IMG/VR virus record: IMGVR_UViG_3300009684_001322
Span: 1-35,096 of that record
Length of the DNA stretch: 35,096 bases
Source of the DNA: a virus
Strand: one strand, 5' to 3'
Part shown: in pieces, positions 4,036 to 28,800 of the stretch
Layout: the number at the start of each line of letters is the position of its first letter
Position numbering within the stretch: position 1 is the stretch's first letter
Made by a program: the position numbers and the translations under genes
Notes under the pieces: model-generated
The model's database searches: none
The model's input: the letters and a program-made list of their open reading frames with translations, nothing else
What the model was told of the DNA's origin: nothing

Positions 4036-5268
4036 ATGTCACTACCAACCACTTCAGGAACCCTAGCATTAAGTTCTGATTTCAATGCTATTCAAAGTAT
4101 CGCTGCTGATATAAGAAGTATAGGTCAGAATGGTTATGGGATCAGCGTGGTCAGCCCCACAATAACCGGCAGTATAATCAGTGCAGATCAAGCCAATACT
4201 TTGTTAAGGAATGTGGGTAGTGTGTACACACACATCAGTAATTTGGTCACCAGTACCAACACTGTGTCCAACATATCCACTAGTAGTAATGTGATCAAGG
4301 CTGTGTTTTACAATCAAATCAAGGCCATGGTGGATTATTGTTTGATCAATAGATATACCTGTCATCCCAATCAATTTCAACACACTGGCGAAAGCACCAT
4401 TGTGTATTCAGTCAATACCAGTAGCACACGCACCTCGGCCTGGGGTGCCAATGGTACCAGTATCATAACTCACCAGGTCAGAGCTGCTTGGTCCACGGCT
4501 CTAATTGCACGATATTATTTCAACAATGGTAATTATATTGCTTGGTCGCCCAGTTATGAAGGCAGTGGAGCCAATGACCTTGATATTGAGTGGGCCAATT
4601 GGCTCAACTATATTGCCAGCACACCTGATCAACAGTTCAAATATTATCGTAGTAATTTTGTATCGGGCAGCACAGTGACTCGAAATTACTCCAGTGGTAC
4701 CCTGCGTATCAGTGTGGTAGCTGTGAAATCCGCTGAGGAAAATATTGTGGATTTTACAATAACGTATCAAAACACGCAGACCACTGCCACCACCAGCACC
4801 ACCGCCTCTAACACTGCAAGCAACATTGTTGTCATTGGTCCTTTCGTCACTGGCCCGGGTGGTAATACCTCTGGCCCCCCAACACCACCTCCACCAGTAG
4901 ATCCAGTACAAGTGGCCCTTGATGCAGCGTATGCAGCTAATAAAGATCTAGTTAGACAACAGTTTAGAACGTGGTATATAACAGTTTTATTACATTTAGA
5001 TCCTGCTACATTTGACGGTCCTTTAATTACTGGTCCGGTCGAAGGTGCTGCATTTGCCCAATATTGGTACGATAACTATGTTCCGGCCCCTACGCCAGTA
5101 AATTTGGCTGCAAGCAACGCCCCTGCTGCTACCGCTATAGCAGATGCTGCCATCGCTGCTGCCACCGCTGCTGCCGCCGCTGCTGCCGCCGCCGCCGCCG
5201 CTGCTGCTGCTGCTGCCGAGGCTGCTGCAAACGATTACGCCAACATCACCAACAGTGGTGGTGCATAA
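4036..5268 (+). CDS. Structural/appendage protein with poly-alanine tail
   Basis: The 410-aa protein is rich in Ser, Thr, Asn and Ala in its first 270 residues, as in phage fibre or neck-appendage proteins. A proline hinge (GPPTPPPPVDP, about residues 282-292) links it to a helical C-terminal region, which ends in 17 consecutive alanines (residues 378-394) within an alanine-rich stretch. There is no signal peptide. It is read from an exact late promoter with an apparently leaderless start and is followed after 12 bases by another large structural gene. Virion surface location is inferred from composition and neighbours. I do not recognise a named family. Confidence 0.7.
   Translation: MSLPTTSGTLALSSDFNAIQSIAADIRSIGQNGYGISVVSPTITGSIISADQANTLLRNVGSVYTHISNLVTSTNTVSNISTSSNVIKAVFYNQIKAMVDYCLINRYTCHPNQFQHTGESTIVYSVNTSSTRTSAWGANGTSIITHQVRAAWSTALIARYYFNNGNYIAWSPSYEGSGANDLDIEWANWLNYIASTPDQQFKYYRSNFVSGSTVTRNYSSGTLRISVVAVKSAEENIVDFTITYQNTQTTATTSTTASNTASNIVVIGPFVTGPGGNTSGPPTPPPPVDPVQVALDAAYAANKDLVRQQFRTWYITVLLHLDPATFDGPLITGPVEGAAFAQYWYDNYVPAPTPVNLAASNAPAATAIADAAIAAATAAAAAAAAAAAAAAAAAEAAANDYANITNSGGA
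5167..5217 (+). repeat. GCN trinucleotide tract (17 alanine codons)
   Basis: Seventeen consecutive alanine codons, all GCT or GCC, occur in the 3' part of the gene at 4036. This is the most GC-rich short tract in the window and is prone to slippage. Confidence 0.95.
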
Positions 5269-5280
5269 TAAGGATCAATA

Positions 5281-7506
5281 ATGGCAACTCAAGTAGCTGT
5301 AAACATAAAAATAAAAAGTGCTGTCGGTGCAACAAATTCCACTGCTTCTATATATTGTCCACCACCTGCTGTGGTTGCCACTACATTGACTCTTGACGGA
5401 GCAACATTAACAGCACCTGTGGCTAATTATGGTGTGTTAAGAGTATCTACCCCGGTAACGTTTGTTTCTTCTCCAAGAGATGAATCTGATATACAAAATT
5501 TAATATTATACAATGACGGTGGAACCACTATTACTCTAACCAGTTTTGATTTTACATGTTCATTGGTAAAAAGCCGTGTTATTATTCCAAAATTTTATGG
5601 AACAGTGGCTCAAAGTCTCATCAGTGGTACAAATGTCACTTTGTTAGCGGGTACAACTGCATCATTTCTAATTTCCTATACAGCAATTGCACCCGGTGAA
5701 TATATCAACAGCCTTGTGTTCTTTTCCAATGCACAAAATCCTGAATATCAAGTCAATACGTATCAAAGTATCAGCAATGATGAAAACATTGTGGCATCGA
5801 ACAGTACATTTGTCACATATACTACAATTTTGGGTCAAACCAATTCAACTGATATCATACTTAATAAACGTACGAATGGGGTAACATATACTGGTACAAA
5901 TTTAACATTTAATACCAGTATATCGGGTGATCCCGGCTGGTCAGTGACCACAGGCACAGTCAATACTATTCATATAGTTTGGAATCCTGACCTAGTAAAC
6001 AATAACACAGGCACATACCGGTCTACTTTAACAGTGTCGGTATCAGAATCGGGTCAATTTTTAGGAACCAAAACTATAACAAATATCAGCTATGTTGACA
6101 TTGATTATTTAAAATATAACAATCTAGCCAGTTGGGTCAGTCCCGCTTCGAGTTATAATAGTATTATTGGAATGAGTCTTGATACTATCAATGATCAACG
6201 TATATTAACCATTGGAGTTGGTATGGGGGGAGATTATGCCTCTCGATATGACCAAGGAGGTTATAACCTAGTTGATGTAAATAATTTGAGTTATAGAGCA
6301 AGAAGTTCCAATCTTAAATTCCCGTATTGGGCCAATGTTTGGAGTTTTGTGTTAACCGAATATAGTTATACCTACCTAAGTGGGTCACTTGACAACGATA
6401 TTGTTCCGAATTATATTAGAAAAACCACTGAGGGTTATAATTACGAGCAATATTTTGGATATGAGCAAAGTCCGGGATATAAATCTATGTTTATTGTTAA
6501 TCATGATGGACGAGGTAATATAACCATAGCGTTAAACAATCTAAGAGAACTCAGTGGAAATGCAGAATTTGATGCTACCTTAAAAAATTTAACCAGAGCA
6601 TTATACTATTATTCTAATTCGGATATCAACGGCCGGTATTCTCAATTAAACTCAGGACCCCTAGGTGATGGTACAAGAACACTATTGTTTAGAGGATTTG
6701 ATAGTCTAGTACCAACTTTGTCTTCATCACTGCCCACGATTGTTCCAAATGGAGTAACTGTGGATTCATCATCGTGGGCATTTAATAATAATAGCCCCGC
6801 ACTCGATTATTATGAACTGACCTCCACAACCACAAATGATTATAATCTTGGTCCTGGCAGATGTACGTTTGAGTTTACCTTCAAGTCTACTAACTATTTT
6901 GCTCAAAACCCAGGTGGACATTTTTCTGTGGTTGTACGTTGTAATAATGCTGCAATTGCCAATGGTTATGTTCAAGGTCAAGGTATGATTATTGGTAATG
7001 TGAGTGCCGCTCCAACGCCCGTAACTCCACCACTACCGCCCGGTGTACCATTTAATCCTAACCCAGTGTATCCATCTACACAAATTGAATCATTCTGGGC
7101 CGGTATCGTATCGCATGACTTCGATACCACTATATATTATGGGAACACATTGTTAGCTAACACAAATGGTGCCAATCCAGTGTTGGTTGATGGGGTTGAA
7201 TATAAATTTATTGTAACAAGTGAAATATCAGCATCCCTTAAGAGTTACACTGGCTACACGATATTACAGGGTACCACAGTGGTTTATAACCAACCATTAG
7301 TGTATGATTACAATATATATTACAACCCTACAAAATCTGGAATTGTAATAGCTCATGTGTTTGAAAATGCCACTGCTTCTGCTTGGTCAGTTGCTGTCAG
7401 TAACAAAGTCATTACATGGGCACCGATTAGAACTGTGAGTATGCTGCCAACGGCTGTTATAACTACCGCAACAGCTATCGTGACCTTACCAACAAATATT
7501 TTATAA
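5281..7506 (+). CDS. Large structural protein, probable tail fibre or appendage
   Basis: The 741-aa protein is rich in Ser, Thr, Asn and Tyr, with alternating hydrophobic patterns typical of beta-sandwich fibre modules. A proline-rich linker (PVTPPLPPGVPFNP, about residues 579-592) separates the long N-terminal part from a C-terminal domain resembling a ligand-binding sandwich. An AAGGA ribosome site lies about nine bases before the ATG. It is probably co-transcribed with 4036-5268 from the late promoter at 4023. No specific family is recognised. Its position before the modification cassette and its composition suggest a virion surface role. Confidence 0.7.
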   Translation: MATQVAVNIKIKSAVGATNSTASIYCPPPAVVATTLTLDGATLTAPVANYGVLRVSTPVTFVSSPRDESDIQNLILYNDGGTTITLTSFDFTCSLVKSRVIIPKFYGTVAQSLISGTNVTLLAGTTASFLISYTAIAPGEYINSLVFFSNAQNPEYQVNTYQSISNDENIVASNSTFVTYTTILGQTNSTDIILNKRTNGVTYTGTNLTFNTSISGDPGWSVTTGTVNTIHIVWNPDLVNNNTGTYRSTLTVSVSESGQFLGTKTITNISYVDIDYLKYNNLASWVSPASSYNSIIGMSLDTINDQRILTIGVGMGGDYASRYDQGGYNLVDVNNLSYRARSSNLKFPYWANVWSFVLTEYSYTYLSGSLDNDIVPNYIRKTTEGYNYEQYFGYEQSPGYKSMFIVNHDGRGNITIALNNLRELSGNAEFDATLKNLTRALYYYSNSDINGRYSQLNSGPLGDGTRTLLFRGFDSLVPTLSSSLPTIVPNGVTVDSSSWAFNNNSPALDYYELTSTTTNDYNLGPGRCTFEFTFKSTNYFAQNPGGHFSVVVRCNNAAIANGYVQGQGMIIGNVSAAPTPVTPPLPPGVPFNPNPVYPSTQIESFWAGIVSHDFDTTIYYGNTLLANTNGANPVLVDGVEYKFIVTSEISASLKSYTGYTILQGTTVVYNQPLVYDYNIYYNPTKSGIVIAHVFENATASAWSVAVSNKVITWAPIRTVSMLPTAVITTATAIVTLPTNIL

Positions 7507-7547: not shown

Positions 7548-10500
7548 ATGTTCGAACACCTCTATCAACTCTCACCAAAAAAAGTCGCAGCCATAACATG
7601 GACTGGCGATCCTTTACACTACGATTTTCAATTGTTTGGATTGGGCAAAGGGCATAAGGAATTTTGGGTAATAAACCCCAACAATAATATTCCAGAGCAA
7701 TGGGATACTGATTTAAAGTTTTATGTAGATACAATTCCTGATACAAGGAAATGTGTAATACTTAGCTATCAGGGAGAATGGATAGTTAAGATATTTAAAC
7801 AAGATTGGTATCCATATCACGGGTATGAACAGGTTGAAATTGTTAAACCCAAAATAATCTGGTCCTACAATTCAGATGTTGATAAACAAATTACGTTTGA
7901 AGATAACCCCTACGGACTATATCAACCGAGTCCATGGGAAAAGAACTACCAGTTAATATGGTACATGGATCCTAGATTTAATCCATTAGATGAGGATGTT
8001 TGGGTATTCAGCTGTCAACTAGTTGAGGGGGATATATTAGGTACTAAACACATGGGATATATAATTCCAGATATAGAAGTATCTTTCAATGATGTATTAC
8101 CTGACCTCGGTGTTGATGTCAATGAATGCTGTCCACCTTATTGGGATTTGATCTACGAGTGTGCATATGATTTAGATAATAAACATATATCCTCTGCTGA
8201 TAAAAGATTATGGGTGATTAAATTTAAACCCATGTGGGGAGCTCCTAAAGATTGGAAATGGATAGGCACAATTAGTCCAGAATATACTGTGATACTCAAT
8301 CCAAACTTACCGCCCATGGCCTATGATATAGATTATGTTATCCCCTGGCATGATTTTAAATTTGAACATGTGTGGATGTTGGATCAAAAACATTTATTGA
8401 ATGGTGAAGATGATTTATGGGCATTTACCTTACAAGTATCCACTGAACTTGATGGGTCTAAGATAATTGATTATGTCAGTCCCAAAATTGAAATAACCTA
8501 TAATACAAACTTACCGCCCATGACCTATGATATAGATTATGTTATCCCCTGGCATGATTTTAAATTTGAACATGTGTGGATGATAGACCGTAAGCATTTA
8601 TTAAATGGTGAAGATGATATATGGGCATTTACCTTACAAGTATCCACTGAACTTGACGGGTCTAAGATAATTGATTATGTTAGTCCCAAAATTGAAATAA
8701 CCTATAATCCTAATTTACCCAAATTAAGTTATGATATAGATTATGTTATCCCTTGGCATGATTTTAAATATGAACATGTATGGATGTTGGATCGCAAACA
8801 CCTACAAAATGGTGAAGATGATATATGGGCATTTACCTTACAAGTATCCACTGAACTTGACGGGTCTAAGATAATTGATTATGTCAGTCCAATTATCAAA
8901 ATAACCTATAATCCTAATTTACCCAAATTAAGTTATGATATAGATTATGTTATCCCTTGGCATGATTTTAAATATGAACATGTATGGATGTTGGATCGAT
9001 CTATAACTAATCAAACTAATATTTGGGCGTTAAGTGCAACAGCCATTGATGATACAGCAGGAGTAAAACAAATTGATACATTATTACCTAACATTGCCAA
9101 ACAGTTAGATGTTATTTTTATTAGTTACTATGAATTAAATGCTGAAGATAATTGGCAACGTGTATTAGAAAAAGCACCTTGGGCCAAACGAGTAGATAGA
9201 GTTACTGGTATATTTGAAGCACATAAGGCAGCGGCTAAATTAGCCAAGTCTGACATGTTCTATGTAGTTGATGGAGATGCATACTTATTGGATGATTGGC
9301 AATTTGATTTCCAACCAAATATATTTGATAGAGATTGCACCTATGTTTGGAATAGTATAAATCCGGTTAATGGTTTGACTTATGGTTTCGGAGGTGTTAA
9401 GCTGTTTAGCAAGTCGAAGATACAATATCTTAAATCATGGGGTACTGACCTAACATTAAGTGTATCAAAAAAGTTAAAAGTAATCAATAAAATTAGCAAC
9501 ATTACTAAATTTAACACTTCTGATTGTGCCACATGGAGAACCGCATTTAGAGAATGTGCCAAGTTATCTAAAAAAGAAGATGCAGAATCTAACAAACGAT
9601 TGCAAGCATGGTTAAATCCAGATGTCACAGCTGAATATTATAAATGGGCAAAATTAGGAGCAGAGCAAGGTAACAAATATGCGTTGAGCCAAGAACCGAT
9701 CAGTAATATCAACGATTACAATTGGTTAAATCAACAATTTAAAATTGCTATAAAACAGTCCAATACATTTTGTATACTGCCCTGGATACATTTTTACGCA
9801 AACCCAGATGGAGATGTACTACCTTGCTGTATTGGAGATTATACCAAACCGTTAGGTAATGTACAGCAAAATTCAATTAGTGAAATATGGAACAATGATC
9901 GATATAAGTCAATGCGATTAAAAATGTTAACAGGTAAAAAATGTGATGAATGTAGTGCTTGTTATCAAAATGAAAATGCAAATGTGCATAGTTTTAGACA
10001 ATCATCGAATGCCTCGTATCTTTCAGAATCTATAAATTTAGTACATGACACAAACCAGGATGGATCTTTGGAAACAATGGAATTAAAATATCTTGACATA
10101 CGATGGAGCAACATCTGTAATTTCAAATGTCGAAGCTGTTCTAGTACATATAGTTCTAGTTGGGCCACTGAAGATAACAAGCAAGGCAAAAATAAAAAAG
10201 TTTTTATTTTTTCAGGAGGAAAAAATAATGATTTATTATTTGATCAGCTTAGACCTCATATAACCGGAATTAAAGAAATTTACTTTGCTGGTGGCGAACC
10301 TTTATTAATGGACAAACATTACGAAATACTTGAATATTTGATTAATACCGGAAATACAAATATAAAAATTAGATATAATTCTAATTTAAGTTCGTTGACC
10401 TTTAAAAATTTATCAGTAATTAAGTTATGGAAAGAGTTTTCCAATATTCATTTAAACGTAAGTTTAGATAGTTGGGGCAGTCGAGCTGAATACATTCGAG

Positions 10501-10988
10501 AAGGTACCGATTGGCCAACTATCGTACAAAATATTAAAAAAGTTAAAGAATCATGCCCTCATATATTCATAGGTATTTCATCTGTGATATCTGTGTTCAA
10601 TGTTTATACAATTCCAGAATTTATAGATTATATGATTGAAAACAATTTTGTTGATGACACAACCAACGTAACGTTTTATAATATTATTAATCCAAATTTT
10701 TACAGTTTTAACATTATTAATGCTGACATTAAAAATAATATTAAAGATAAGTTATTAGATAAAATTAAAACTATGGATTTACTATCAGATAGTAACTATA
10801 GCATGATAAAAAATCAAATAAAAAACGTAATAAGTCAGTTAGATTCATCGTCGGTTAATGAAATTGCACAACAAGAATTTAAAGAAAACACGGAATACTA
10901 TGATACCATTAGGAATAAAAAATTTATAGATACGTTCCCAGAACTTGCAGAATTTTATACAAACATAAAAATAATAAAGGCACAATAA
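7548..10988 (+). CDS. Repeat-domain / glycosyltransferase / twitch radical-SAM fusion
   Basis: The 1146-aa protein has three parts. Residues 1-485 include a 68-residue unit repeated three times plus a partial fourth (from about residue 259), each with DIDYVIPWHDFK and WAFTLQVST. Residues about 515-620 resemble a phage glycosyltransferase domain, with the metal/nucleotide-sugar motif D575-G-D577 in FYVVDGDAYLL. Residues about 735-1140 form a radical-SAM enzyme: an N-terminal cysteine-rich twitch/SPASM-like segment (C742, C760, C761 and a later CDECSACY), the cluster motif C857-x3-C861-x2-C864 and the SAM-contact motif GGE at 915-917. Such enzymes generate a 5'-deoxyadenosyl radical for peptide or small-molecule modification. 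The next gene, also radical-SAM, starts immediately after its stop. Substrate unknown; a protein or peptide that is both glycosylated and radically modified is inferred only. Confidence 0.85.
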   Translation: MFEHLYQLSPKKVAAITWTGDPLHYDFQLFGLGKGHKEFWVINPNNNIPEQWDTDLKFYVDTIPDTRKCVILSYQGEWIVKIFKQDWYPYHGYEQVEIVKPKIIWSYNSDVDKQITFEDNPYGLYQPSPWEKNYQLIWYMDPRFNPLDEDVWVFSCQLVEGDILGTKHMGYIIPDIEVSFNDVLPDLGVDVNECCPPYWDLIYECAYDLDNKHISSADKRLWVIKFKPMWGAPKDWKWIGTISPEYTVILNPNLPPMAYDIDYVIPWHDFKFEHVWMLDQKHLLNGEDDLWAFTLQVSTELDGSKIIDYVSPKIEITYNTNLPPMTYDIDYVIPWHDFKFEHVWMIDRKHLLNGEDDIWAFTLQVSTELDGSKIIDYVSPKIEITYNPNLPKLSYDIDYVIPWHDFKYEHVWMLDRKHLQNGEDDIWAFTLQVSTELDGSKIIDYVSPIIKITYNPNLPKLSYDIDYVIPWHDFKYEHVWMLDRSITNQTNIWALSATAIDDTAGVKQIDTLLPNIAKQLDVIFISYYELNAEDNWQRVLEKAPWAKRVDRVTGIFEAHKAAAKLAKSDMFYVVDGDAYLLDDWQFDFQPNIFDRDCTYVWNSINPVNGLTYGFGGVKLFSKSKIQYLKSWGTDLTLSVSKKLKVINKISNITKFNTSDCATWRTAFRECAKLSKKEDAESNKRLQAWLNPDVTAEYYKWAKLGAEQGNKYALSQEPISNINDYNWLNQQFKIAIKQSNTFCILPWIHFYANPDGDVLPCCIGDYTKPLGNVQQNSISEIWNNDRYKSMRLKMLTGKKCDECSACYQNENANVHSFRQSSNASYLSESINLVHDTNQDGSLETMELKYLDIRWSNICNFKCRSCSSTYSSSWATEDNKQGKNKKVFIFSGGKNNDLLFDQLRPHITGIKEIYFAGGEPLLMDKHYEILEYLINTGNTNIKIRYNSNLSSLTFKNLSVIKLWKEFSNIHLNVSLDSWGSRAEYIREGTDWPTIVQNIKKVKESCPHIFIGISSVISVFNVYTIPEFIDYMIENNFVDDTTNVTFYNIINPNFYSFNIINADIKNNIKDKLLDKIKTMDLLSDSNYSMIKNQIKNVISQLDSSSVNEIAQQEFKENTEYYDTIRNKKFIDTFPELAEFYTNIKIIKAQ
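8322..8996 (+). repeat. 204-bp tandem repeat (68 codons), 3.3 copies
   Basis: Units begin at 8322, 8526, 8730 and 8934 with exact 204-bp spacing. They are nearly identical in DNA sequence, and the fourth copy diverges after about 63 bp. The repeat lies in the N-terminal half of the radical-SAM fusion gene, and copy number could change by recombination. Confidence 0.9.
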
Positions 10989-12371
10989 ATGGACAATGCA
11001 CAACACCGAATTAAAACCGTTATATCTATTGTAAACGAAACAAGCCCAACATTTTGTTTAGCTAAATGGCATCATGTTACTTTATATTTACAAACAGGTG
11101 AAACACATAGTTGTTATCATCCTGCACCACACACAATAAATTTAGAAGAACTCAAAGATAATCCCAGTGCATTGCATAATACTTCTCATAAGAAGTTAGA
11201 ACGTAAAGAGATGTTAGAGGGTGTTAAAACCAAAGGATGCCAATATTGTTGGAATATTGAATCAATGGGCCCTGACTATGTCAGTGACAGGCATATTAAG
11301 ACTGCTAGTATATTCACCGAAGAACGATACAAACAAGCTGTAACGGGCCCATGGGATCAAAATATAAATCCAGAATATGTAGAAATTAGTTTTGGTAATG
11401 AATGTAATTTCAAATGCGGATATTGTCATCCCAAGGCCAGCAGTAGATTTTATAATGAAATCAAACAGTTTGGTCCTGTTACCACTGTAAAGAATCATCG
11501 TTGTGATATTGATTGGATGAACTTATATGAAAGAGAAGAAAAAAATCCTTATGTTGATGCTTGGTGGCAATGGTGGCCAGAACTGCGTAAAACATTATCT
11601 ATTCTACGTATAACGGGCGGCGAACCATTGATGCACACCAGCACATGGAAATTATTAGATAGTCTTGAAAAAGACCCAATGCCTAATCTTGAATTGAATA
11701 TCAATAGTAACTTGGGAGTTAAATCTAGATTAGTAGATAAAATGATTGAGTCAATTAACTCTCTCACAGCATCTAACAGTATTAAGAGATTTAAATTGTA
11801 CACTAGTATCGATACTTGGGGTCCACGAGCGGAATATGTTAGAACTGGACTTGATTTAATATTATGGGAACGTAACTTTGATGCATATCTTAAAGAAACC
11901 GGACAACCTATAAGTTTTATGATTACCTTTAATATTTTATGTGTAACAACATTTAAACAATTATTGGTTAAAATACTAGAGTGGCGAAGAATATATAATC
12001 CATATAACAAAACTGATCAACCACAAATGGTTAGGTTTGATACACCGTACTTAAAAGAACCATTGCAATACGATATGAATATTCTACCCAAAGACGAGTT
12101 TATGCCATACATGCATGATAGTTTAAAATTTATGGAAGACAATTTAGATGACTCTAATCCCAACAAGTTTTCATCCGTGGAGTTTGAAAAGTTTAGAAGA
12201 GTGGTCGATTATATGGCAACAACTACGTATGATGATGATAAGCTAGATGAAGGACGTAAGGATTTCTATAATTGGTTTAATGAATTAGATACACGAAGGG
12301 GCACTGATTTTTTAAATACATTTCCGGAAATGATAAATTTTCATAATATATGCAAGGATTTAAATGACTAA
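10989..12371 (+). CDS. Twitch-domain radical-SAM protein
   Basis: The 460-aa protein shows the radical-SAM cluster motif C139-x3-C143-x2-C146 (ECNFKCGYC) and the SAM motif GGEP from residue 210. Cysteines before the core (FCLAKWHH, SCYHPAP and GCQYCW) form a twitch/SPASM-like auxiliary-cluster segment, here N-terminal as in the preceding fusion protein. It begins directly after the stop of 7548-10988 and overlaps the next gene by eight bases, so the four genes form one operon. It likely catalyses a radical modification of a peptide or glycan in the infected cell. The two radical-SAM domains share the SLDSWG/SIDTWG-RAEY region, indicating a paralogous pair. Confidence 0.85.
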   Translation: MDNAQHRIKTVISIVNETSPTFCLAKWHHVTLYLQTGETHSCYHPAPHTINLEELKDNPSALHNTSHKKLERKEMLEGVKTKGCQYCWNIESMGPDYVSDRHIKTASIFTEERYKQAVTGPWDQNINPEYVEISFGNECNFKCGYCHPKASSRFYNEIKQFGPVTTVKNHRCDIDWMNLYEREEKNPYVDAWWQWWPELRKTLSILRITGGEPLMHTSTWKLLDSLEKDPMPNLELNINSNLGVKSRLVDKMIESINSLTASNSIKRFKLYTSIDTWGPRAEYVRTGLDLILWERNFDAYLKETGQPISFMITFNILCVTTFKQLLVKILEWRRIYNPYNKTDQPQMVRFDTPYLKEPLQYDMNILPKDEFMPYMHDSLKFMEDNLDDSNPNKFSSVEFEKFRRVVDYMATTTYDDDKLDEGRKDFYNWFNELDTRRGTDFLNTFPEMINFHNICKDLND

Positions 12372-13653
12372 GAAATTGAATTTTGTCTATGAATGGATTG
12401 GTCCACGCGGCCCTATCACTAATAATAGAGTACCTACAATGATTGATCTAGTTGATCAATACGTGATGGATCCCCCTAACACTATACGTTGGGATTTCCA
12501 TCATATACCACATTGTTATACTCAATTTAAATCTAACTGTAATATTATACCAGCCTGCACATTACCAACTGATGTATTTTTATATGAAATAAATTTTGGG
12601 AATTATAATTATAGAGATATATTACATATGTTTCATATCAATGACGGATTGTTAGATCACAACAATATAACCCCTGAAATTATATCTCGTGTAAAAAATA
12701 AAGAAGCATTTATTTTAATCACTATATTACATGAAAGCTTTCTCGATGATGTATTTTTACAGTCAATGAAACACTATTTTGATTACAAACAAATTCCATT
12801 ATCACAAATTATATACATTTCACATTGTGCCAATGGGCAAGAAATTTATATTGATCACTGTGCTAGACATAGTATAGCACCTGAAATGCACATGGAGTAT
12901 ATTCCAACTACACGAATTGATAGAACTGATATTGATGTTAATAAACCATTAACAACATATGAGCCTGGAAGTAGAAATAAAACATTTTTATGTTTTAATA
13001 GGCGATACCATTCGCATAGGTTAATATTTTTTATGATGATGGAAAAACGTAAATTATTAGCTGACTTTTATATGAGTATGGCAAAGACGCAACCGGGATC
13101 AGGTCAATCGTTTACTACTACTATATCGCACTTAGTTCACAATCATCCACAATATAATTTTACCATTGAGGACATTGCTAGGTGTGAATCAACATTGCCT
13201 TTGGTATTAGACAAACCTGATTTTGAATTGTATCCTATGGAGTCAAGCCCCGATGATTTAGAAACATTTTATAAAAACTCTTTAATTAATATCATTACTG
13301 AAACTTTCTTTTTTAATAAAATAATTCATGTGACTGAAAAGACATTTAAACCAATTGCACAGTTACAACCATTTATTATAATTGCATCTCCGGGCAGTTT
13401 ACAACATATAAGAGATATGGGATTCAAAACGTTTAGTGAGTTTTGGGATGAAAGTTATGATCAAGAAACTGACCATGAGGTTAGATTTAATAAAATATTT
13501 GATCTAGTTGAACTCATAAGCAAGTGGTCTGAAGAGCAAAAAATTGAATTCTCATACAAGGTTAAAGACATACTTGAATATAATGCCGAACATTTATACA
13601 GTATGAAAAATATAGAATTGGATAAAATCGTAGAAAAATATGGAGTACTATAA
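12364..13653 (+). CDS. Glycosyltransferase-like protein
   Basis: The 429-aa protein has a C-terminal half resembling the nucleotide-sugar end of GT-B enzymes: NRRYHSHRL, then TEKTFKPIAQLQPFI, SPGSLQHIRDMGFKTF and a conserved acidic DQETDHEVRFNKI. These blocks recur in the next gene (SEKGYKPIVCVRPFI, FLEQVRELGFETF, LELDHNKRANMI), so the two are paralogues. The start overlaps the previous stop by eight bases, pointing to translational coupling. It is cytoplasmic, without signal or membrane segments. Sugar and acceptor are unknown; its place in the radical-SAM operon suggests the same pathway. Confidence 0.6.
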   Translation: MTKKLNFVYEWIGPRGPITNNRVPTMIDLVDQYVMDPPNTIRWDFHHIPHCYTQFKSNCNIIPACTLPTDVFLYEINFGNYNYRDILHMFHINDGLLDHNNITPEIISRVKNKEAFILITILHESFLDDVFLQSMKHYFDYKQIPLSQIIYISHCANGQEIYIDHCARHSIAPEMHMEYIPTTRIDRTDIDVNKPLTTYEPGSRNKTFLCFNRRYHSHRLIFFMMMEKRKLLADFYMSMAKTQPGSGQSFTTTISHLVHNHPQYNFTIEDIARCESTLPLVLDKPDFELYPMESSPDDLETFYKNSLINIITETFFFNKIIHVTEKTFKPIAQLQPFIIIASPGSLQHIRDMGFKTFSEFWDESYDQETDHEVRFNKIFDLVELISKWSEEQKIEFSYKVKDILEYNAEHLYSMKNIELDKIVEKYGVL

Positions 13654-14813
13654 TGATTTACAACAGAAGCGGACAATTTTATCATTTAACTTATAAAGCT
13701 ACACATTTTAAATCATTAAGCGATTGGAAATCTGATGTTGATGTAATTTATCATTATCATCCCTACCACGGCGGCACAATAGTGAATGCATTCGATGATA
13801 TTCATTGGGAGCATTTACGCTCTGAGCCTACAGCAAAATTCTTATATGAAAATTGTAATGAAACTTTTACATGTGAATTAGCAGAACAGATTAAAAATTT
13901 AATTGATCTAAAACAAATTCCTACCAGTAAAATGTTTATGCTGGTCATGGATGAAGTTCATAAATCATTTCTTGAAGATAGATTAAACGAATTAAACATA
14001 CGTGGTATTACAATTGGAATTTATAATATAGGGCTAGTGAATTCGAAATTATTAATTAATGATCGATTAATTACAAAGAAATTTAGTGCATTAAGTAGAC
14101 GTTATGTAAATTGGCGATTACATCTATATGCTAGGTTAGCTGAAAGAAATTTATTAAAAGATTTTATATATAGTTTTTATAATATTCACCCATATGGTGA
14201 AGTAATTCATTTTGATAAAGATCGTATGCTAGAAGACTTACATAAAACTAATTTTGGATCAATAGGGCATGATGTGTTACAATGGATGGATAATATTCCA
14301 TATAAATTAAAAAAAAATGTTCTTTTAAATGCTTGGGATGATGAAACATATAGAACTGTATTTTCTGCAGATATTCATGTGTTAGTAGAAACACATTATG
14401 ATTTTTATTATGCACCAACAGGTCCGGATAATATATATCATAGAAAATTAGCACCAAGTTTTATGTCAGAAAAAGGATATAAACCAATTGTGTGTGTTAG
14501 GCCATTTATTGCATTTTCTACTCCTTATTTTTTAGAACAAGTTAGAGAATTAGGCTTTGAAACGTTTAGTCCGTATATTAATGAAGCGTATGATTTAGAA
14601 CTTGATCATAATAAACGAGCAAATATGATTGTTGCAGAAATTGAACGTATATCTAATTTGCCAACTGATAAATATCAACAGTTGGTTAAAGATTGTAATG
14701 CAATTGCAGAGCGTAACAAGGCATTGTTTGTTGCTAAACAATCGGACACTCAATACAATCAAAACTTTGATTTTCTAATTGATCATTGTAACATGTTGCA
14801 TATTATTCACTAA
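13653..14813 (+). CDS. Glycosyltransferase-like protein, paralogue of 12364-13653
   Basis: The 386-aa protein begins on the last base of the previous stop codon (TAATG), so translation is probably coupled. Its C-terminal half repeats the blocks seen in the preceding protein: an arginine-rich LSRRYVNWRL, then SEKGYKPIVCVRPFI and VRELGFETFSPYINEAYD. The N-terminal halves differ more, as expected if they bind different acceptors. No transmembrane segment is seen. It closes the four-gene cassette; a new sigma70 promoter follows at 14828. The glycosyltransferase assignment rests on fold-like motifs and is tentative. Confidence 0.6.
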   Translation: MIYNRSGQFYHLTYKATHFKSLSDWKSDVDVIYHYHPYHGGTIVNAFDDIHWEHLRSEPTAKFLYENCNETFTCELAEQIKNLIDLKQIPTSKMFMLVMDEVHKSFLEDRLNELNIRGITIGIYNIGLVNSKLLINDRLITKKFSALSRRYVNWRLHLYARLAERNLLKDFIYSFYNIHPYGEVIHFDKDRMLEDLHKTNFGSIGHDVLQWMDNIPYKLKKNVLLNAWDDETYRTVFSADIHVLVETHYDFYYAPTGPDNIYHRKLAPSFMSEKGYKPIVCVRPFIAFSTPYFLEQVRELGFETFSPYINEAYDLELDHNKRANMIVAEIERISNLPTDKYQQLVKDCNAIAERNKALFVAKQSDTQYNQNFDFLIDHCNMLHIIH

Positions 14814-16392: not shown

Positions 16393-16734
16393 TTAATCTT
16401 CACCTGGCTCAAAGTGAGCCACAGCTTCTTCTAATAGTTCAATATGTGTGAGATTTAGATATTTGTTATCTAATTCGTAGAACTTTTCTTCCCCAGATTT
16501 TGAACATTCCACACCCAACATTTCCATAAGTTCAACATAGGTGATATCTTCATCTCGTAATTGACTAACCCAAATGCATGTTAGAAACATACACATAAAA
16601 ACCACACGTTCGTCATCGATCCCGTAATTGTCACACCAGGTTTCTGTTTTTTCAAGATAATATGCAATATCTTCTAATCGATCCTCTAGCTGAGCAATCC
16701 ATTCTTTTGTATGTTCTCTAGACCAATATTTCAT
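16393..16734 (-). CDS. Hypothetical acidic protein
   Basis: The 113-aa product is acidic and helical, with REHTKEWIAQLEDRLEDIAYY at the start and a conspicuous MCMFLTCIW patch in the middle. No family is recognised. Its ATG overlaps the TGA stop of the Fe-S carrier gene at 16731-17057 (ATGA), so both are read from the minus-strand late promoter at 17064-17071. Co-translation with an Fe-S carrier may mean a related role, but nothing in the sequence shows it. Confidence 0.75.
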   Translation of the reverse strand: MKYWSREHTKEWIAQLEDRLEDIAYYLEKTETWCDNYGIDDERVVFMCMFLTCIWVSQLRDEDITYVELMEMLGVECSKSGEEKFYELDNKYLNLTHIELLEEAVAHFEPGED

Positions 16735-17057
16735 ATTCTAAAACTTTCTCCACAACCACATTCTCCTTTAGAGTTAGGATTTAAAAATTCAAATCCTTCA
16801 TTAAGTCCATTACGAACCCAATCCATAGTCAAGCCATTTAGATACACTAGGCTTTTGGCATCAATCAATACCACAAAGTCAGTTTGAGCATAGTTGGTAA
16901 CACCCGTTTCAGCTGTGTATTCGTCCACATATTCCAACACATAGGCCAATCCACTACATCCTGTAGTCTTTACACCAATACGAATACCCACGCCCTTGCC
17001 ACGTTTTGCCAGATTCAGTTTAATCTTTTTAGACGCTGTGTCGGTTACGGTAATCAT
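16731..17057 (-). CDS. iscA: A-type Fe-S carrier protein (IscA/HesB family)
   Basis: The 108-aa protein has the family's three conserved cysteines at C34 (GCSGLAY), C100 and C102 (ECGCGESF), and normal family length. A-type carriers hold a nascent Fe-S cluster and pass it to apo-enzymes. Homologues occur in many marine phages. It is read from a TATAAATA late box six bases before the ATG. The plus-strand neighbour at 17086 is a second, diverged A-type carrier read from the mirror-image promoter. A phage with two radical-SAM enzymes has an evident need for Fe-S supply. Confidence 0.85.
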
Positions 17058-17063
17058 GTATGA

Positions 17064-17080
17064 TATTTATAGTATAAATA
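17064..17080. promoter_or_regulatory. Palindromic bidirectional late promoter
   Basis: TATTTATA at 17064-17071 and TATAAATA at 17073-17080 are separated by one G and form a perfect palindrome. Each half is an exact late box, one per strand. The start codons lie six bases (minus) and five bases (plus) beyond the boxes. Confidence 0.85.
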
Positions 17081-17085
17081 TTAAT

Positions 17086-17415
17086 ATGGAACAAATAAAC
17101 ATCACTGATTCTGCAATATTAAAAATTGCTGATTTATTAGCAGAAGAAAACAATCCAGAATTAAAACTACGCACATTTGTACAAGGTGGTGGATGTAGTG
17201 GATTTCAATATGGATTTACTTTTGATGAGGAACAAAATGAAGATGACTTTTTAATTAAAAAGTCCGGCCTGTCTATTTTAATAGATGCAATGAGTATGCA
17301 ATATTTAACGGGTTCTACTATTGATTATAAAGAAGAATTAAATGGATCCAGTTTTGTTATCCAAAATCCCGGAGCAACCAGTACTTGCGGATGTGGTTCA
17401 AGTTTTTCAGTTTAA
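17086..17415 (+). CDS. A-type Fe-S carrier protein (ErpA/IscA-like)
   Basis: The start at 17086 is chosen because it follows an exact late box by five bases; the frame continues upstream into the opposing gene. The 109-aa product has C37 ([11 protein letters not shown]), C101 and C103 (STCGCGSSF). The [11 protein letters not shown] context is nearer the ErpA-type than the IscA-type, so the two phage carriers are probably not recent duplicates. It probably delivers clusters to enzymes in the infected cell. The gene is monocistronic; the ligase behind it has its own promoter. Confidence 0.85.
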
Positions 17416-23336: not shown

Positions 23337-25826
23337 ATGCCAATGTATAAATTATCCGGTAGTAGAATAATAACGGTCGTTGCCGAACAGTTCATCGGTG
23401 CTCCGGGTGTTCTCTTTTGGGATGAAACTACTGGCGACCTAAGATTGGGTGACGGAGTTACTCCAGGCGGCATTAGAATGTTTGCCAACTCCGAATTACT
23501 GCCAACTATAATCGGTGGTACCGGAACAACAGTTACTACTTCTGGAACAACAGTTACTATCTCTAGTAATGTTGGTGGCGGCACAATTATTAATGTTGCT
23601 GGTTCTGTACCCGATGTAAATGTTTCCCCTCCTAACAATCCTCAAACAACATTAAATGCAGCATTTTCTACTGCAATTTCAGGCACAAGTGTAATAGATA
23701 GTGCAACTGGAGATTTATGGGTTAAGGGTACTACCACATGGATTGATGCAGGCAGGGTAATAGGGTATACAGGTAGTCAAGGTAATTTAGGTTATAGTGG
23801 TAGCTTTGGATTTACTGGTAGTCGAGGTTACGCAGGTAGTGTCGGGTTCACTGGTAGTCAAGGCTATATTGGATATGTAGGTAGTCAAGGTATACAAGGA
23901 CCTGCAGGTACTTCCGTAAAAATTATAGGTAGCTTAGATTATGCATCTGAATTAAATTTAGAATATGGTCTGCTTCCTGGGACCAACCCCGGCGATGGTA
24001 TTATCATTACACAAGAAGACGGTGAACTTCATGTTTGGACTGGCCAAGGGTGGACAAATGTAGGTAAAATTCGAGGCCCGCAAGGATTTTATGGTAGTCG
24101 AGGTTACGCAGGTAGTAGTGGTTATACCGGTTCAGCAAGCACTGCTAGTGGTTATATAGGTAGTATAGGTTATACTGGATCTATTGGTTATACAGGTAGT
24201 CGAGGTTACATTGGTAGCTTTGGTTATACAGGTAGCTTTGGTTATACAGGTAGCTTTGGTTATACAGGTAGCTTTGGTTATACAGGTAGCTTTGGTTACA
24301 CAGGTAGTCAAGGTTATACTGGATCTATCGGTTATACAGGTAGTCAAGGGCATGAGGGTAGCACAGGGTATACAGGTAGTTTTGGTTATACAGGTAGTTT
24401 TGGATTTACAGGTAGTCAAGGTTATACTGGTAGTCAAGGCAACATTGGTTATACTGGTAGTCTAGGATATACTGGTAGTCTAGGATATACTGGTAGTCTA
24501 GGATATACTGGTAGTCTAGGATATATAGGTAGTACAGGTTATTGGGGTAGCTTCGGTTATACTGGTAGCTTTGGATTTACAGGTAGTTTTGGATTTACAG
24601 GTAGTCAAGGTTATACTGGTAGCTTTGGATTTACAGGTAGTCAGGGTATAGACGGATTCACAGGTAGTTTTGGATTTACAGGTAGTCGAGGTTACACAGG
24701 TAGCTCCGGATTTACAGGTAGTCAAGGTTACATTGGTTATACCGGTAGCTTTGGGTATACTGGCAGCGTTGGGTATACTGGCAGCGTTGGTTATACTGGC
24801 AGCGTTGGTTATACCGGTAGTCGAGGCGAACTAGGTTATAGTGGTAGTCGAGGCAAAGATGGTACTTCAGTTAAAATTAAAGGTGAAGTCACTAGTACAT
24901 ATTATCTATCTAATCCCTATTATGTTGACTCATTGGGATACATGGTACAGCCGTTGTATGATGGCAGCCCCCCACCAAATGGTTATATTGGTTCATTAGG
25001 TGACGGTTATATAGATGCATCGGACGGTTCTTTAATAGTCTGGACTGGTAATATTAGCGGTGCTGCGGCAGGTTGGGTAAACGTTGGAGTAATATCAGGT
25101 CCCGTAGGCCCAACAGGTAGTAGGGGGTATAGTGGTAGTATTGGTATTATTGGATTTACTGGTAGTACAGGAACCCAAGGCGCTATAGGATTTACTGGTA
25201 GTCTAGGATTTACTGGTAGTCTAGGATTTACTGGTAGTCAAGGCGTTGATGGATTTACGGGATCACGGGGATCACTAGGAGTATCGGGTGCTCAGGGGTA
25301 TTTTGGTAGTGTTGGTTTTACCGGTAGTCGAGGTGATCAAGGTTATTGGGGTAGTGCTGGTTATAATGGATCTGCTGGTTATAATGGATCTGCTGGTTAT
25401 AATGGTTCTGCTGGTTATAATGGATCTGCTGGATATAATGGTAGTGCAGGGTATTGGGGTAGTTTTGGTTTTACCGGTAGTCGAGGGTATTGGGGTAGTT
25501 TTGGTTATACTGGCAGTCAAGGTCCAGGCGCCAATCAAGATTTAAACACTACCAGTACAGTTACATTTGCTACTATAATCCTAGGACTGGGCGGAAATAT
25601 AACATTCCCAGATGGAACTACTCAATCAACTTCTCCTGCAAAAATGTATCTCAATTCCGATGTTGCTCTTGGATTAACCACTAGTGATATGAAAAATGGG
25701 GATTTTTATTATGATGATGGTTCGGGAGCAGCGCCCGGTGATCCTATCTTGCCTGTTTTATATGTCATGGTTGACACTGGTGGCGGTGTACTTAATCTCC
25801 TACAATTGTATCCGGTTGTGGCGTAA
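23337..25826 (+). CDS. Collagen-like tail fibre with Mtd-like N-terminus
   Basis: The 829-aa protein opens with a module resembling the N-terminal domain of phage tropism determinants (APGVLFWDETTGDLRLGDG). Three long Gly-X-Y tracts follow, dominated by GYTGS and GFTGS triplets (about residues 142-190, 240-515 and 590-730). They are separated by two related globular modules that start GTSVKI and contain VWTG and WVNVG. A beta-rich C-terminus ends LLQLYPVVA. Such repeats form trimeric triple helices in phage fibres. A strong GGGAGGAAG ribosome site precedes the ATG. Host-receptor contact is the likely role. DNA tandem repeats inside the gene make its length prone to change. Confidence 0.85.
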   Translation: MPMYKLSGSRIITVVAEQFIGAPGVLFWDETTGDLRLGDGVTPGGIRMFANSELLPTIIGGTGTTVTTSGTTVTISSNVGGGTIINVAGSVPDVNVSPPNNPQTTLNAAFSTAISGTSVIDSATGDLWVKGTTTWIDAGRVIGYTGSQGNLGYSGSFGFTGSRGYAGSVGFTGSQGYIGYVGSQGIQGPAGTSVKIIGSLDYASELNLEYGLLPGTNPGDGIIITQEDGELHVWTGQGWTNVGKIRGPQGFYGSRGYAGSSGYTGSASTASGYIGSIGYTGSIGYTGSRGYIGSFGYTGSFGYTGSFGYTGSFGYTGSFGYTGSQGYTGSIGYTGSQGHEGSTGYTGSFGYTGSFGFTGSQGYTGSQGNIGYTGSLGYTGSLGYTGSLGYTGSLGYIGSTGYWGSFGYTGSFGFTGSFGFTGSQGYTGSFGFTGSQGIDGFTGSFGFTGSRGYTGSSGFTGSQGYIGYTGSFGYTGSVGYTGSVGYTGSVGYTGSRGELGYSGSRGKDGTSVKIKGEVTSTYYLSNPYYVDSLGYMVQPLYDGSPPPNGYIGSLGDGYIDASDGSLIVWTGNISGAAAGWVNVGVISGPVGPTGSRGYSGSIGIIGFTGSTGTQGAIGFTGSLGFTGSLGFTGSQGVDGFTGSRGSLGVSGAQGYFGSVGFTGSRGDQGYWGSAGYNGSAGYNGSAGYNGSAGYNGSAGYNGSAGYWGSFGFTGSRGYWGSFGYTGSQGPGANQDLNTTSTVTFATIILGLGGNITFPDGTTQSTSPAKMYLNSDVALGLTTSDMKNGDFYYDDGSGAAPGDPILPVLYVMVDTGGGVLNLLQLYPVVA
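24213..24311 (+). repeat. 18-bp tandem repeat, four perfect copies plus variants
   Basis: GGTTATACAGGTAGCTTT is repeated exactly at 24222, 24240, 24258 and 24276, with a half copy before and a variant after. It encodes GYTGSF. Confidence 0.95.
24447..24518 (+). repeat. 18-bp tandem repeat, three perfect copies plus one variant
   Basis: GGATATACTGGTAGTCTA is repeated exactly at 24465, 24483 and 24501, preceded by a near copy. It encodes GYTGSL. Confidence 0.95.
25356..25445 (+). repeat. 18-bp tandem repeat, five copies
   Basis: GCTGGTTATAATGGATCT occurs at 25356, 25374, 25392 (one change), 25410 and 25428 (diverging). It encodes AGYNGS. Confidence 0.9.
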
Positions 25827-25858: not shown

Positions 25859-28800
25859 GTGTCTATATTCTTTTCCCCCATTCCCCCGAAAACACCGAAT
25901 CCTGCTGCTATACTAGCAGATGCATTCGCAGGAAGCCAAGACATATATATTGGCGGTGTCCCTACTGGTGTAGCATCCGTAGGTACACTTGGCAACACTT
26001 TTAATGCAGGTAAAATAGCATACGGTAGTTTTAACCCTGCAAATACATATCTTGGATTAAGTGGCATTAGCCCCATGGGCAAGGGAACTGGAACAGTTCC
26101 TGGATTAATATCAAGTGTATTATCACTGGATAATTTAACAGCAGTTGGTCAGCTCACATCATTTGTCCCCATATCTGTATACGGTGGCGCAGCAAATCCT
26201 TCTACCACTCCGTGTCCATACACTGTCACAGTGGATACATTACCCGATGGACTAAGTTTATATACTAGCGTAACGACCATAGATGTTACAGGTACAGCTC
26301 CCACACAAGACGCAACATTTCAAGTAACATTTACATTTACTGCAAGTAAATTAACAGGGTTATCTCCAGTTGTTGGAAAATTTTATGCTGTACGGGGACA
26401 GTCTAAATTATCATATAATGGTATTTGGGAATGTAAAGCTGTAACGGCAACTAGTATTACTTTAAAATACAATGCAAGTCCTGCTGCAAGCGGTGGAACA
26501 GGAATCCCAAATCAAGTATCCTGGAGTAGTACATCTTTAACCACTATTACTGATGTGGGTCAAAAAACAATACCTGATGCAGGTGGAGTTTTATCGTGGT
26601 ATAATTATACTGAGATTTTAATTGCCGGTACCCCTACTGCTCCGTTGGCAAAAAAGAGCTTTACTGTTAGATTTACCGATGCTACAGGTCAGAGTAAAAC
26701 TGAATCTTTTAATTTAGAAATCACCGGTGGTGCTCAACCTTTAGACACAGTACTAGATCCGTATAATTCAGTATTATCGCAGAATGTTGCAGTATCGTTT
26801 ACACCTGTTAGATCATTGGGAGGTACCGGTACTAAGACTTTTACTGCGCCTGGTGGCCTACCAACTGGTTTATCCATAAATTCAACTGGGGTAATATCAG
26901 GGACGCCTACCTCTGCATCAGGGTCTCAATCATATACAATACTTGTCACTGATGGTGCTGGAGCAACTTCATCTAAATTAATTACATTAGAAGTTAAAGC
27001 ACCTGCGGTAAATGTTGCGTTAGCTCAAAGTCAAGCATATTCGTATGTTCAAACAGTTCCATTTACAGAATTTAAACCAATATTAGGCACAGGCGGTATT
27101 GCTCCACTAAGTTATACAATATCACCGGATGTAATAGCGTATGGTTTAACTTTTACAACTGGTACTGTTCGAGGACCCGGAACCACAGTAACAGGCGGCG
27201 TAAAAAGTTTTGAAGTTACTGTCGCTGATTCAAATACTCCTCCGACCACTAATAAATTATCTTTTTCTTTAGAGATAACTGCATTACCGGCATTAACAGT
27301 ATCAGTTAATTCGCCAACAATTAGTTTAACTAAGAACAGTTCGGCAGGGTTGCCAACTAGCCCAATTAGTGCTAATAATGGTTATTTGAATAAAACATTT
27401 ACTGTAACGAATACTGCTACACTAGCGTCAGTTGGGCTGAGTTTTTCAAGTGCAGGTGTTCTTAGTGGTACTCCTAGTGGGTTGTTGTCGTCGACTCCCT
27501 TTATAGTAACAGTAACTGACCAAGCTCCGACACCTCAAACCAAGACTGCAACATTTACGCTGTCTATTCTGTCTGTACCATTAAACACTACATTAGCAGT
27601 TGTTGGTAGAATATCAGGTACAGTAGGTGTACCTATCACATCCGCTGCCCCAGTAACTGCATCTAATGGTGATGGCGCATACAAATATTCTATTGCACCT
27701 AATATAACTTCACAATTAGGACTAGCATTTACAACTGTAACAAATGGATCAGTTGTTGGTGGAACTATTTCTGGAACCCCTACTACTGCAACAAGTGGTG
27801 TAGCTTCTTATACTGTCACAGTCACTGATGCAGCATTGCAAACAAGTAGTACTGCATTTACTATTCAAATAGATAATCCACTTCCATTAACTGTAGGATC
27901 AATTGGAAGTAAAACATTATTACATAAAGATCCAGTAACTGCATTTACTCCGGTTTATACAACATCACCCGGATACAGTACATTAAAATATGTTATCACT
28001 GGTACAAATAATGTATTGTTGCCCACCGGACTTAATTTTAATACATCGAATGGTGAGATAACAGGTACACCGTCAACATATCTAATAACTGCTACTACTT
28101 TTTCAGTTACAGTAACTGATCAAGCAAAGCAGGTTGCAACCGGTACATTTACATTAACTGTTAATACAAGGGCAATTGTACCTACAGTTATAACACCTAA
28201 AGTATTCACAAAGTTAGTAGCGAATTCATATCAACCAGTAACTGTTACTGGTGGCTCTGAAGTATATACATATGCTATTAATCCTAGTCCAAGTTTACCA
28301 CCCAACTTGTCGTTTAGTACAGTTACTGGCGTACTTTCTGGTACAGCAGCAAGCACTAGTACATCGGGATCAAATACGTATACTGTTACTGTCACTGATT
28401 CGTTAAACACGCAAAGCATTAGTACATTTGTATTAACAGTACAGGATGCACCCGCACTTGCAACTACTTCAACGATTTCAAGTAGTACATTTTACAAAAA
28501 TGAAAGTATTGGCAGTGCAATTACTCCGGTTACTATTGTTTCTCCAGGAACCCCTCCGTTAAAGTTTGAAACATTACCTACTGACCTTGCAGCAGACACT
28601 GGATTAACGTTTAGTACCACCAATGGACAAATAAGTGGAAGCCCGTCCACAAATACAAATGGGACTAAAACATATACTATAAAAGTCACTGATGGATTAG
28701 GGCAAATTAGTAGTCAGACTTATGCATTAATAGTTACATATAGACCACTAGCAACTGCATATGCTCCACCGTCGGTGGCTCCGGTGAACATGCAGTTGAC

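Follow-up and report, generated by a model that had tools for sequence, protein, structure and literature searches.

Islands of glycan-modifying genes are known from phage genomes, and radical S-adenosylmethionine (SAM) cassettes within them have been mentioned. In pelagimyophages, glycosyltransferases are common in the host recognition cluster, radical SAM cassettes differ between related genomes, and modification of the O-chain was proposed; freshwater members of the same set were reported to be without radical SAM genes (PMC7029224). For jumbo phages, clusters encoding glycosyltransferases, sugar-nucleotide enzymes, and 2-oxoglutarate (2OG)-Fe oxygenases were proposed to change the host surface or to make a metabolite (PMC7824862). 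Here, we analysed a cassette of four genes, A to D, on the IMG/VR virus record IMGVR_UViG_3300009684_001322 (35,096 nucleotides in full, hereafter the window, probably a fragment of a larger genome). This cassette has relatives in many environmental phages, in which a gene for a GT-A-type glycosyltransferase almost always adjoins radical SAM gene B. We tentatively favour a reading in which the cassette, placed in the fibre/host-recognition region of large tailed phages, encodes a pathway that modifies glycoconjugates, with a product that is most likely on the envelope of the infected cell.

The initial annotation had described four coupled genes, and the four open reading frames (ORFs) were found on the + strand at exactly its coordinates. 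The stop of A abuts the start of B, B and C overlap by 8 bases, and C and D overlap by 1 base. The cassette and the parts of A are as follows (aa, amino acids):

7548..10988, + strand: A, a 1146-aa fusion of a repeat region, a GT-A domain, and a radical SAM with an N-terminal twitch
8298..8999, + strand: 204-bp tandem repeat in A (3.4 copies, 91% match), coding for 68-aa beta-rich repeats
9090..9752, + strand: GT-A-type domain of A (residues 515-735), with conserved DGD and FRE..K
9771..9962, + strand: N-terminal twitch / SPASM segment of the A radical SAM (PF13186)
10104..10601, + strand: radical SAM core of A (PF04055), with CNFKCRSC and GGEP
10989..12371, + strand: B, a 460-aa twitch radical SAM, more conserved than any other cassette member
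12364..13653, + strand: C, a 429-aa GT-B-fold protein with NRR..HR and TEK..KP motifs
13653..14813, + strand: D, a 386-aa paralogue of C, in which R, E, E, K, and K of the C signature are retained

IMG/VR contigs were scanned with B, which has at least 596 relatives there, and neighbourhoods were taken from the best 80 of these, across which B is 66-100% identical. The denominators used below are 78 (loci with 1.2 kb or more upstream of B), 54 (loci with 6 kb or more downstream), and 65 (loci with upstream sequence). In 73 of the 78 loci, B is directly preceded by the GT-A gene, and in the remaining five a single gene separates the two; where examined (L009), this intervening gene (~189 aa) encodes a 2OG-Fe(II) oxygenase-family protein. 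All 54 loci with sufficient downstream sequence contain a GT-B gene of the C/D family, and most of them contain another twitch radical SAM (51/54) and a small radical SAM of 322 aa (51/54). A B12-binding radical SAM (22/54), an NAD-epimerase-like family named from its sequence rather than scanned (29/54), and a UDP-glucose/GDP-mannose (uridine and guanosine diphosphate sugar) dehydrogenase family (7/54) are also found. Elsewhere, the cassette is larger than the four genes of the window, with further radical SAMs and glycosyltransferases. The proposal that these genes represent a dedicated modification pathway is thereby strengthened, since GT-A, B, and the GT-B family occur together in nearly all 80 related loci and GT-A is also linked to twitch radical SAMs in Bdellovibrionota.

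Among cultured phages the picture is very different. Protein searches of 50,697 GenBank phage records gave no full-length match to B, GT-A, or C, and neither GT-A nor C is present in any of them; with the A repeats, GT-A, and radical SAM, B, and C as queries, the only radical SAM matches were weak ones in Vibrio phages K566 and K567. The whole cassette shows no DNA similarity to GenBank phages. Found beside the same glycosyltransferase in almost all loci and almost absent from these records, B marks a pathway that is widespread among environmental phages and has yet to be characterised.

Two features of the related loci are noted in their own right. Small proteins of 101 and ~115 aa (L049:6839-7144 and L049:8702-9058) are encoded in 52/65 and 48/65 loci, respectively; they are absent from GenBank phages and from the window's own lineage, and have no PHROG match. 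In addition, the 231-kb relative G005 contains a second radical-SAM/GT-A cluster within the same phage genome (L121:2564-19180). It encodes a QueC-like PP-loop protein alongside one B-like and several twitch radical SAMs, and shares several gene families with chromosomal clusters of Bdellovibrionota.

B scores 311 bits against the NCBIfam model NF033640 ("twitch domain-containing radical SAM protein", N_Twi_rSAM), for which the curated cut-off is 170 bits, and the matches of A and B span nearly the full model, including the N-terminal twitch. Seven cysteines of B, namely C23, C42, C84, and C87 of the twitch and C139, C143, and C146 of the CxxxCxxC motif, are invariant among 29 sequences, and the GGEP motif is also invariant from phages to bacteria. 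This pattern fits an enzyme that carries one auxiliary and one radical SAM cluster. The initial annotation had proposed a second radical SAM and N-terminal twitch cysteines in both enzymes, which agrees with the score and invariant cysteines of B and with PF13186 in A.

The ratios of non-synonymous to synonymous substitution rates (dN/dS), obtained from pairs with unsaturated synonymous sites, are 0.04-0.06 for B, 0.07-0.11 for GT-A, 0.14 for an N_Twi paralogue, and 0.38 for a C-family gene; these values are rough because synonymous divergence is high in several pairs (dS > 1). Purifying selection on B, GT-A, and the N_Twi paralogue, looser on the C relative, shows that the observed genes are not a product of chance.

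A was likewise found to be the repeat-glycosyltransferase-radical-SAM fusion that had been described. Its residues 738-1137 score 395 bits against NF033640, and the Pfam domains SPASM (residues 742-805) and Radical_SAM (853-1018) are both significant. The N-terminus consists of beta-rich units, the copy number of which varies among relatives. The repeat-GT-A part has no meaningful sequence match among solved structures. In the AlphaFold2 model of the glycosyltransferase part (mean predicted local distance difference test score, pLDDT, 86.5), residues 515-655 match nucleotide-sugar folds of the GT-A type, with VIA Z values as high as 10.9; in this comparison, GT-A structures are equalled by nucleotidyltransferases, IspD among them. 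D575-G-D577 is conserved, with D575 and D577 invariant in the alignment, so that model and alignment together provide the nucleotide-diphospho-sugar fold and the DxD motif by which GT-A enzymes are recognised.

The combination in one polypeptide had been taken as evidence for a dedicated pathway, but among the related loci compared the fusion is limited to the window and L003; the latter is a record of its own, with 6 differences from the window over 15,947 bases. In L004, the nearest distinct relative (82-88% identity), the repeat-GT-A gene stops where the radical SAM of the window starts, and B follows directly. In the other loci where it was found, GT-A is a gene of its own, apart from the radical SAM (~317 aa in most relatives), and each twitch radical SAM likewise has its own gene, mostly downstream of B. 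The fusion is therefore lineage-specific, and we rejected it as a general architecture; it hints at linked activities nonetheless.

C and D had been called paralogous glycosyltransferase-like proteins, a view that holds: they share 28% identity over 215 residues (BLASTP E 5e-18), D retains the C signature R219, E313, E325, K326, and K329, and the AlphaFold2 model of C (mean pLDDT 78.9, with low confidence for the first ~80 residues) has a GT-B fold (Foldseek match to SenB at 5e-5; VIA Z about 10-11 over 270-290 residues). Pfam, NCBIfam, and PDB profile searches gave no sequence-family match for C. The viral proteins that are structurally close to C come mostly from uncultured Caudovirales phages and are uncharacterised; one is annotated as a UDP-glucose/GDP-mannose dehydrogenase fusion. 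FUT9 and an alpha1,3-fucosyltransferase with GDP match the fold at Z ~10, so that the fold is comparable with that of GT10 enzymes, but many GT-B families tie in Z, and C has no GT10 sequence-family match (Pfam, PDB profile). The TEK motif of C presumably resembles that of GT10, which we take as a lead only.

The fold neighbours that tie in Z with C are the phage HY126 glycosyltransferase, which comes first, the T4 alpha- and beta-glucosyltransferases (AGT and BGT), fucosyltransferases, and other GT-B enzymes. The T4 enzymes raise the idea that the glycosyltransferases and radical SAMs protect phage DNA from restriction by hypermodifying it. We consider this very improbable, given that the Z values do not single out these enzymes, that a thymidylate-synthase family occurs once in 7/11 records and neither in the window nor in the 231-kb G005, and that the cassette lies in the fibre region, not in the replication region.

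The location of the cassette is best seen in G005, where the gene order is hub-lysozyme (gp5-like), gp6-like wedge (phrog_10646), a 6459-aa phrog_10938 protein, fibres, two glycosyltransferase-like genes, GT-A, and B. This is a fibre/glycosyltransferase island beside baseplate genes, as in T4-like host recognition clusters. No baseplate core gene was identified in the window, itself probably a genome fragment. Fibre or virion-structural families that recur among the loci are found just upstream of the cassette in 59 of 65 loci; of the six others, most contain large fibre-like ORFs of different families. The fibre genes of the window, together with two genes for A-type Fe-S carriers, are:

4036..5268, + strand: 410-aa fibre-like protein (family in 7-8 loci)
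5281..7506, + strand: 741-aa fibre-like protein directly upstream of A (family in 13 loci, window counted)
16731..17057, - strand: A-type Fe-S carrier (PF01521), a possible cluster supplier for the radical SAMs
16996..17415, + strand: second A-type Fe-S carrier (PF01521)
23337..25826, + strand: 829-aa collagen-like tail fibre, a candidate substrate under the idea of the initial annotation
25859..31231, + strand: 1790-aa immunoglobulin (Ig)/collagen fibre
33032..34384, + strand: 450-aa collagen-like fibre

Several other features of the window were observed. The two Fe-S carrier genes (16731-17415) are on opposite strands with overlapping ORF starts, and a gene for a subtilase-family protease (PF00082; 31233-32978) is sandwiched by two fibre genes. 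A 252-aa protein encoded on the - strand at 3188-3946 looks by eye like a heptosyltransferase (GT9 type); it has no Pfam match and belongs to a 14-member family among the related loci. Near the window start, two similar ORFs of ~98 aa (37-336 and 758-1054) lie on opposite strands and form one sequence cluster.

This location led the initial annotation to propose the nearby fibres as substrates. According to this explanation, the targets are fibres or other virion proteins of the phage itself: the radical SAMs would alter side chains and the glycosyltransferases would glycosylate them, protecting or tuning host binding. Besides the upstream fibre genes, it draws on an upstream fibre-glycosyltransferase-GT-A-B block that is largely constant inside a B subclade, on polypeptide glycosyltransferases among the nearest, weakly matching folds of GT-A, and on the known glycosylation of mycobacteriophage virions (cited in PMC12619734). 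The association with fibre genes is consistent, so the lack of one, which the initial annotation had named among its grounds for refutation, was not observed. The association nevertheless involves no particular fibre: among the loci with upstream sequence no single fibre family is shared, and fibre sets are unrelated between loci. Moreover, 59 cultured phage records encode a protein related to one of these fibres (43% over 53% of the query), although full-length matches to the cassette genes are missing from that collection. The pairing of B with PqqD and a small S74-chaperone protein in some Bdellovibrionota, described below, would also suit a fibre substrate, but PqqD is found in 0/11 phage records and the S74 family in only 2/11. 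On balance, virion modification is one of the two leading readings, but we regard it as rather unlikely, and the host envelope as the more likely target than the virion fibre, the target itself being unproven. If the product were nevertheless on the fibre, it would show radical chemistry in virion maturation.

Relatives of B also occur in bacteria. When 84,980 genomes were scanned for exact peptides of B, 15 loci were obtained, by title mostly from Bdellovibrionota; the titles of three read no more than "Proteobacteria bacterium" or "bacterium", and the phylum search placed one of these three in the phylum of the Halobacteriovoraceae locus. A profile search, which covered Bdellovibrionota only, detected B-type proteins (E < 1e-80) in 46 of 192 genomes. 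Because the exact-peptide scan is blind to distant copies (it would miss 27 of 27 more distant Bdellovibrionota copies) and the profile search was confined to that phylum, the restriction of B to Bdellovibrionota is not proven. In a quick maximum-likelihood tree, with Shimodaira-Hasegawa-like approximate likelihood-ratio test (SH-aLRT) values in place of bootstraps and long outgroup branches, the phage B proteins form one clade (SH-aLRT 99) nested among bacterial sequences, with two sequences from Bdellovibrio metagenome-assembled genomes as sisters.

The GT-A family was found in 11 of the 192 Bdellovibrionota genomes, and 10 of these 11 also carry B (hypergeometric 2.5e-6, ignoring relatedness). 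In most of these bacterial loci, GT-A adjoins twitch or small radical SAMs, and L145, on a 936-kb contig, has a C-family gene as well. Given this linkage in chromosomes, the GT-A/radical-SAM association is not confined to phages. Bdellovibrionota may be the hosts of the phages or the source of the cassette, which we put forward only as a hypothesis because the profile search was limited to this phylum. The bacterial relatives thus provide testable counterparts as well as a host hypothesis for phages without a cultured member.

Some Bdellovibrionota B genes adjoin genes for ABC-2 exporters, GT4, and carbamoyltransferases. An enrichment of prepilin-like (0.89 vs 0.56 per 100 kb) and PMT-like (1.40 vs 0.56 per 100 kb) neighbours was slight over 20 control windows and is not claimed. 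In L115 (7933-10142) and L118 (7914-10116), an operon encodes a B-type radical SAM, a PqqD-type protein, and a ~145-aa S74 protein, in which a conserved N-terminal segment of ~40 aa (EFNLQEIEEEVLNESIYLDVFAG in L115) directly precedes the S74 autoproteolytic chaperone domain; similar S74 mini-proteins occur in L094 and L113. This operon is possibly a peptide-precursor arrangement. No relatives of the S74 mini-protein were found in phage cassettes; among the phages, the S74 profile matched one fibre ORF, in L018.

Two further explanations involve these bacterial loci. In the first, an undescribed radical-SAM/GT-A protein-modification system would put a radical-SAM-modified glycosyl group on a fibre or adhesin, and would be common to predatory Bdellovibrionota and to a large group of uncultured large tailed phages, which either infect these bacteria or acquired the system from them. 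We consider this unlikely; if true, it would be, to our knowledge, the first radical SAM modification of a virion fibre. In the second, which we judge to have a distinctly low probability, the product is a small molecule or glycopeptide that is secreted, i.e. a signal or a product like the ribosomally synthesised and post-translationally modified peptides (RiPPs), the true substrate being a short peptide. The combination of several twitch/SPASM-type radical SAMs with glycosyltransferases does resemble peptide natural-product clusters, the L115 and L118 operons and the widespread 101-aa and ~115-aa cassette proteins would suit such a product, and a sugar/amino-acid secondary-metabolite cluster was proposed in jumbo cyanophages (PMC7824862). 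However, no PqqD-type recognition domain was found in the phage cassette, nor a precursor peptide as far as relatives of the S74 mini-protein are concerned, the lineage of the window is without the 101-aa and ~115-aa genes, and glycosyltransferase and sugar-nucleotide genes dominate.

The reading that we favour, a product on the host envelope, draws on the near-constant GT-A/B pairing, the GT-B enzymes, the co-travelling sugar genes, the location in the host-recognition region, and the ABC-2 exporter, GT4, and carbamoyltransferase genes near some Bdellovibrionota B genes. A host surface glycan had been named in the initial annotation as the alternative target, and it fits both the co-travelling epimerase-like, UDP-sugar dehydrogenase, and glycosyltransferase genes and published precedents from host recognition clusters. 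The higher dN/dS of the C relative compared with B fits a variable glycan on a fixed core reaction. Gene content, co-occurrence, folds, purifying selection, and location are observed, and the GT-A enzyme and B form the fixed core of the pathway; its chemistry, order of steps, acceptor, and biological effect are what we infer. B and the further twitch radical SAMs probably carry out radical chemistry on a sugar or a glycosylated acceptor, e.g. epimerisation, dehydrogenation, or C-C/C-S bond formation, and the GT-A and variable GT-B enzymes (C/D) would add sugars. The product on the infected cell's envelope would then alter its phage-receptor properties, e.g. in superinfection or re-adsorption, and would show how these phages remodel receptors. 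The A-type carriers possibly supply Fe-S clusters to the radical SAMs; they occur in 8/12 cassette-bearing phage records vs 11/50,697 GenBank phage records (tblastn for the latter), a contrast that is only indicative because the two sets were assessed by different methods.

Several points weigh against an envelope product. Neither an acceptor nor an exporter was identified in the window, and the literature searched gave no function or biochemistry for NF033640 and nothing on N-terminal twitch radical SAMs. The top Foldseek matches of the GT-A domain include the polypeptide glycosyltransferases ppGalNAcT and SunS, albeit weakly (E ~1e-3). PqqD was found near B in five bacterial loci, with two weaker profile hits in others; as PqqD-type proteins usually serve peptide substrates, and some Bdellovibrionota B genes pair with them, a peptide target remains open. 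Among the scanned proteins of the window fragment, there was no Pfam match to the flippase GtrA or the bactoprenol glycosyltransferase GtrB, no test aimed at O-antigen conversion having been made.

In comparison with known systems, the cassette resembles the host recognition cluster of pelagimyophages and T4-like marine phages in that fibres and many glycosyltransferases lie beside baseplate genes; it differs in the conserved GT-A and B pair, its wide spread, and its Bdellovibrionota relatives, which were not found in the accessible part of that report (PMC7029224). More generally, the conserved GT-A and B core, its breadth, and its bacterial counterpart were not found in the literature searched. 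With the jumbo-phage clusters, the cassette shares a gene content of glycosyltransferases, sugar-nucleotide enzymes, and 2OG-Fe oxygenases, whereas the term radical SAM is absent from PMC7824862. The SPASM/twitch peptide maturases that act with PqqD likewise combine a radical SAM with an auxiliary Fe-S domain, and PqqD is beside some Bdellovibrionota B genes; in the cassette, by contrast, the twitch is N-terminal, and the phages are without PqqD. The cassette also resembles NF033640, through the CxxxCxxC motif and auxiliary cysteines of B and through CNFKCRSC and PF13186 in A. Within this family, B nevertheless forms a distinct subfamily, separate from the other N_Twi members (support 100) and common to Bdellovibrionota.

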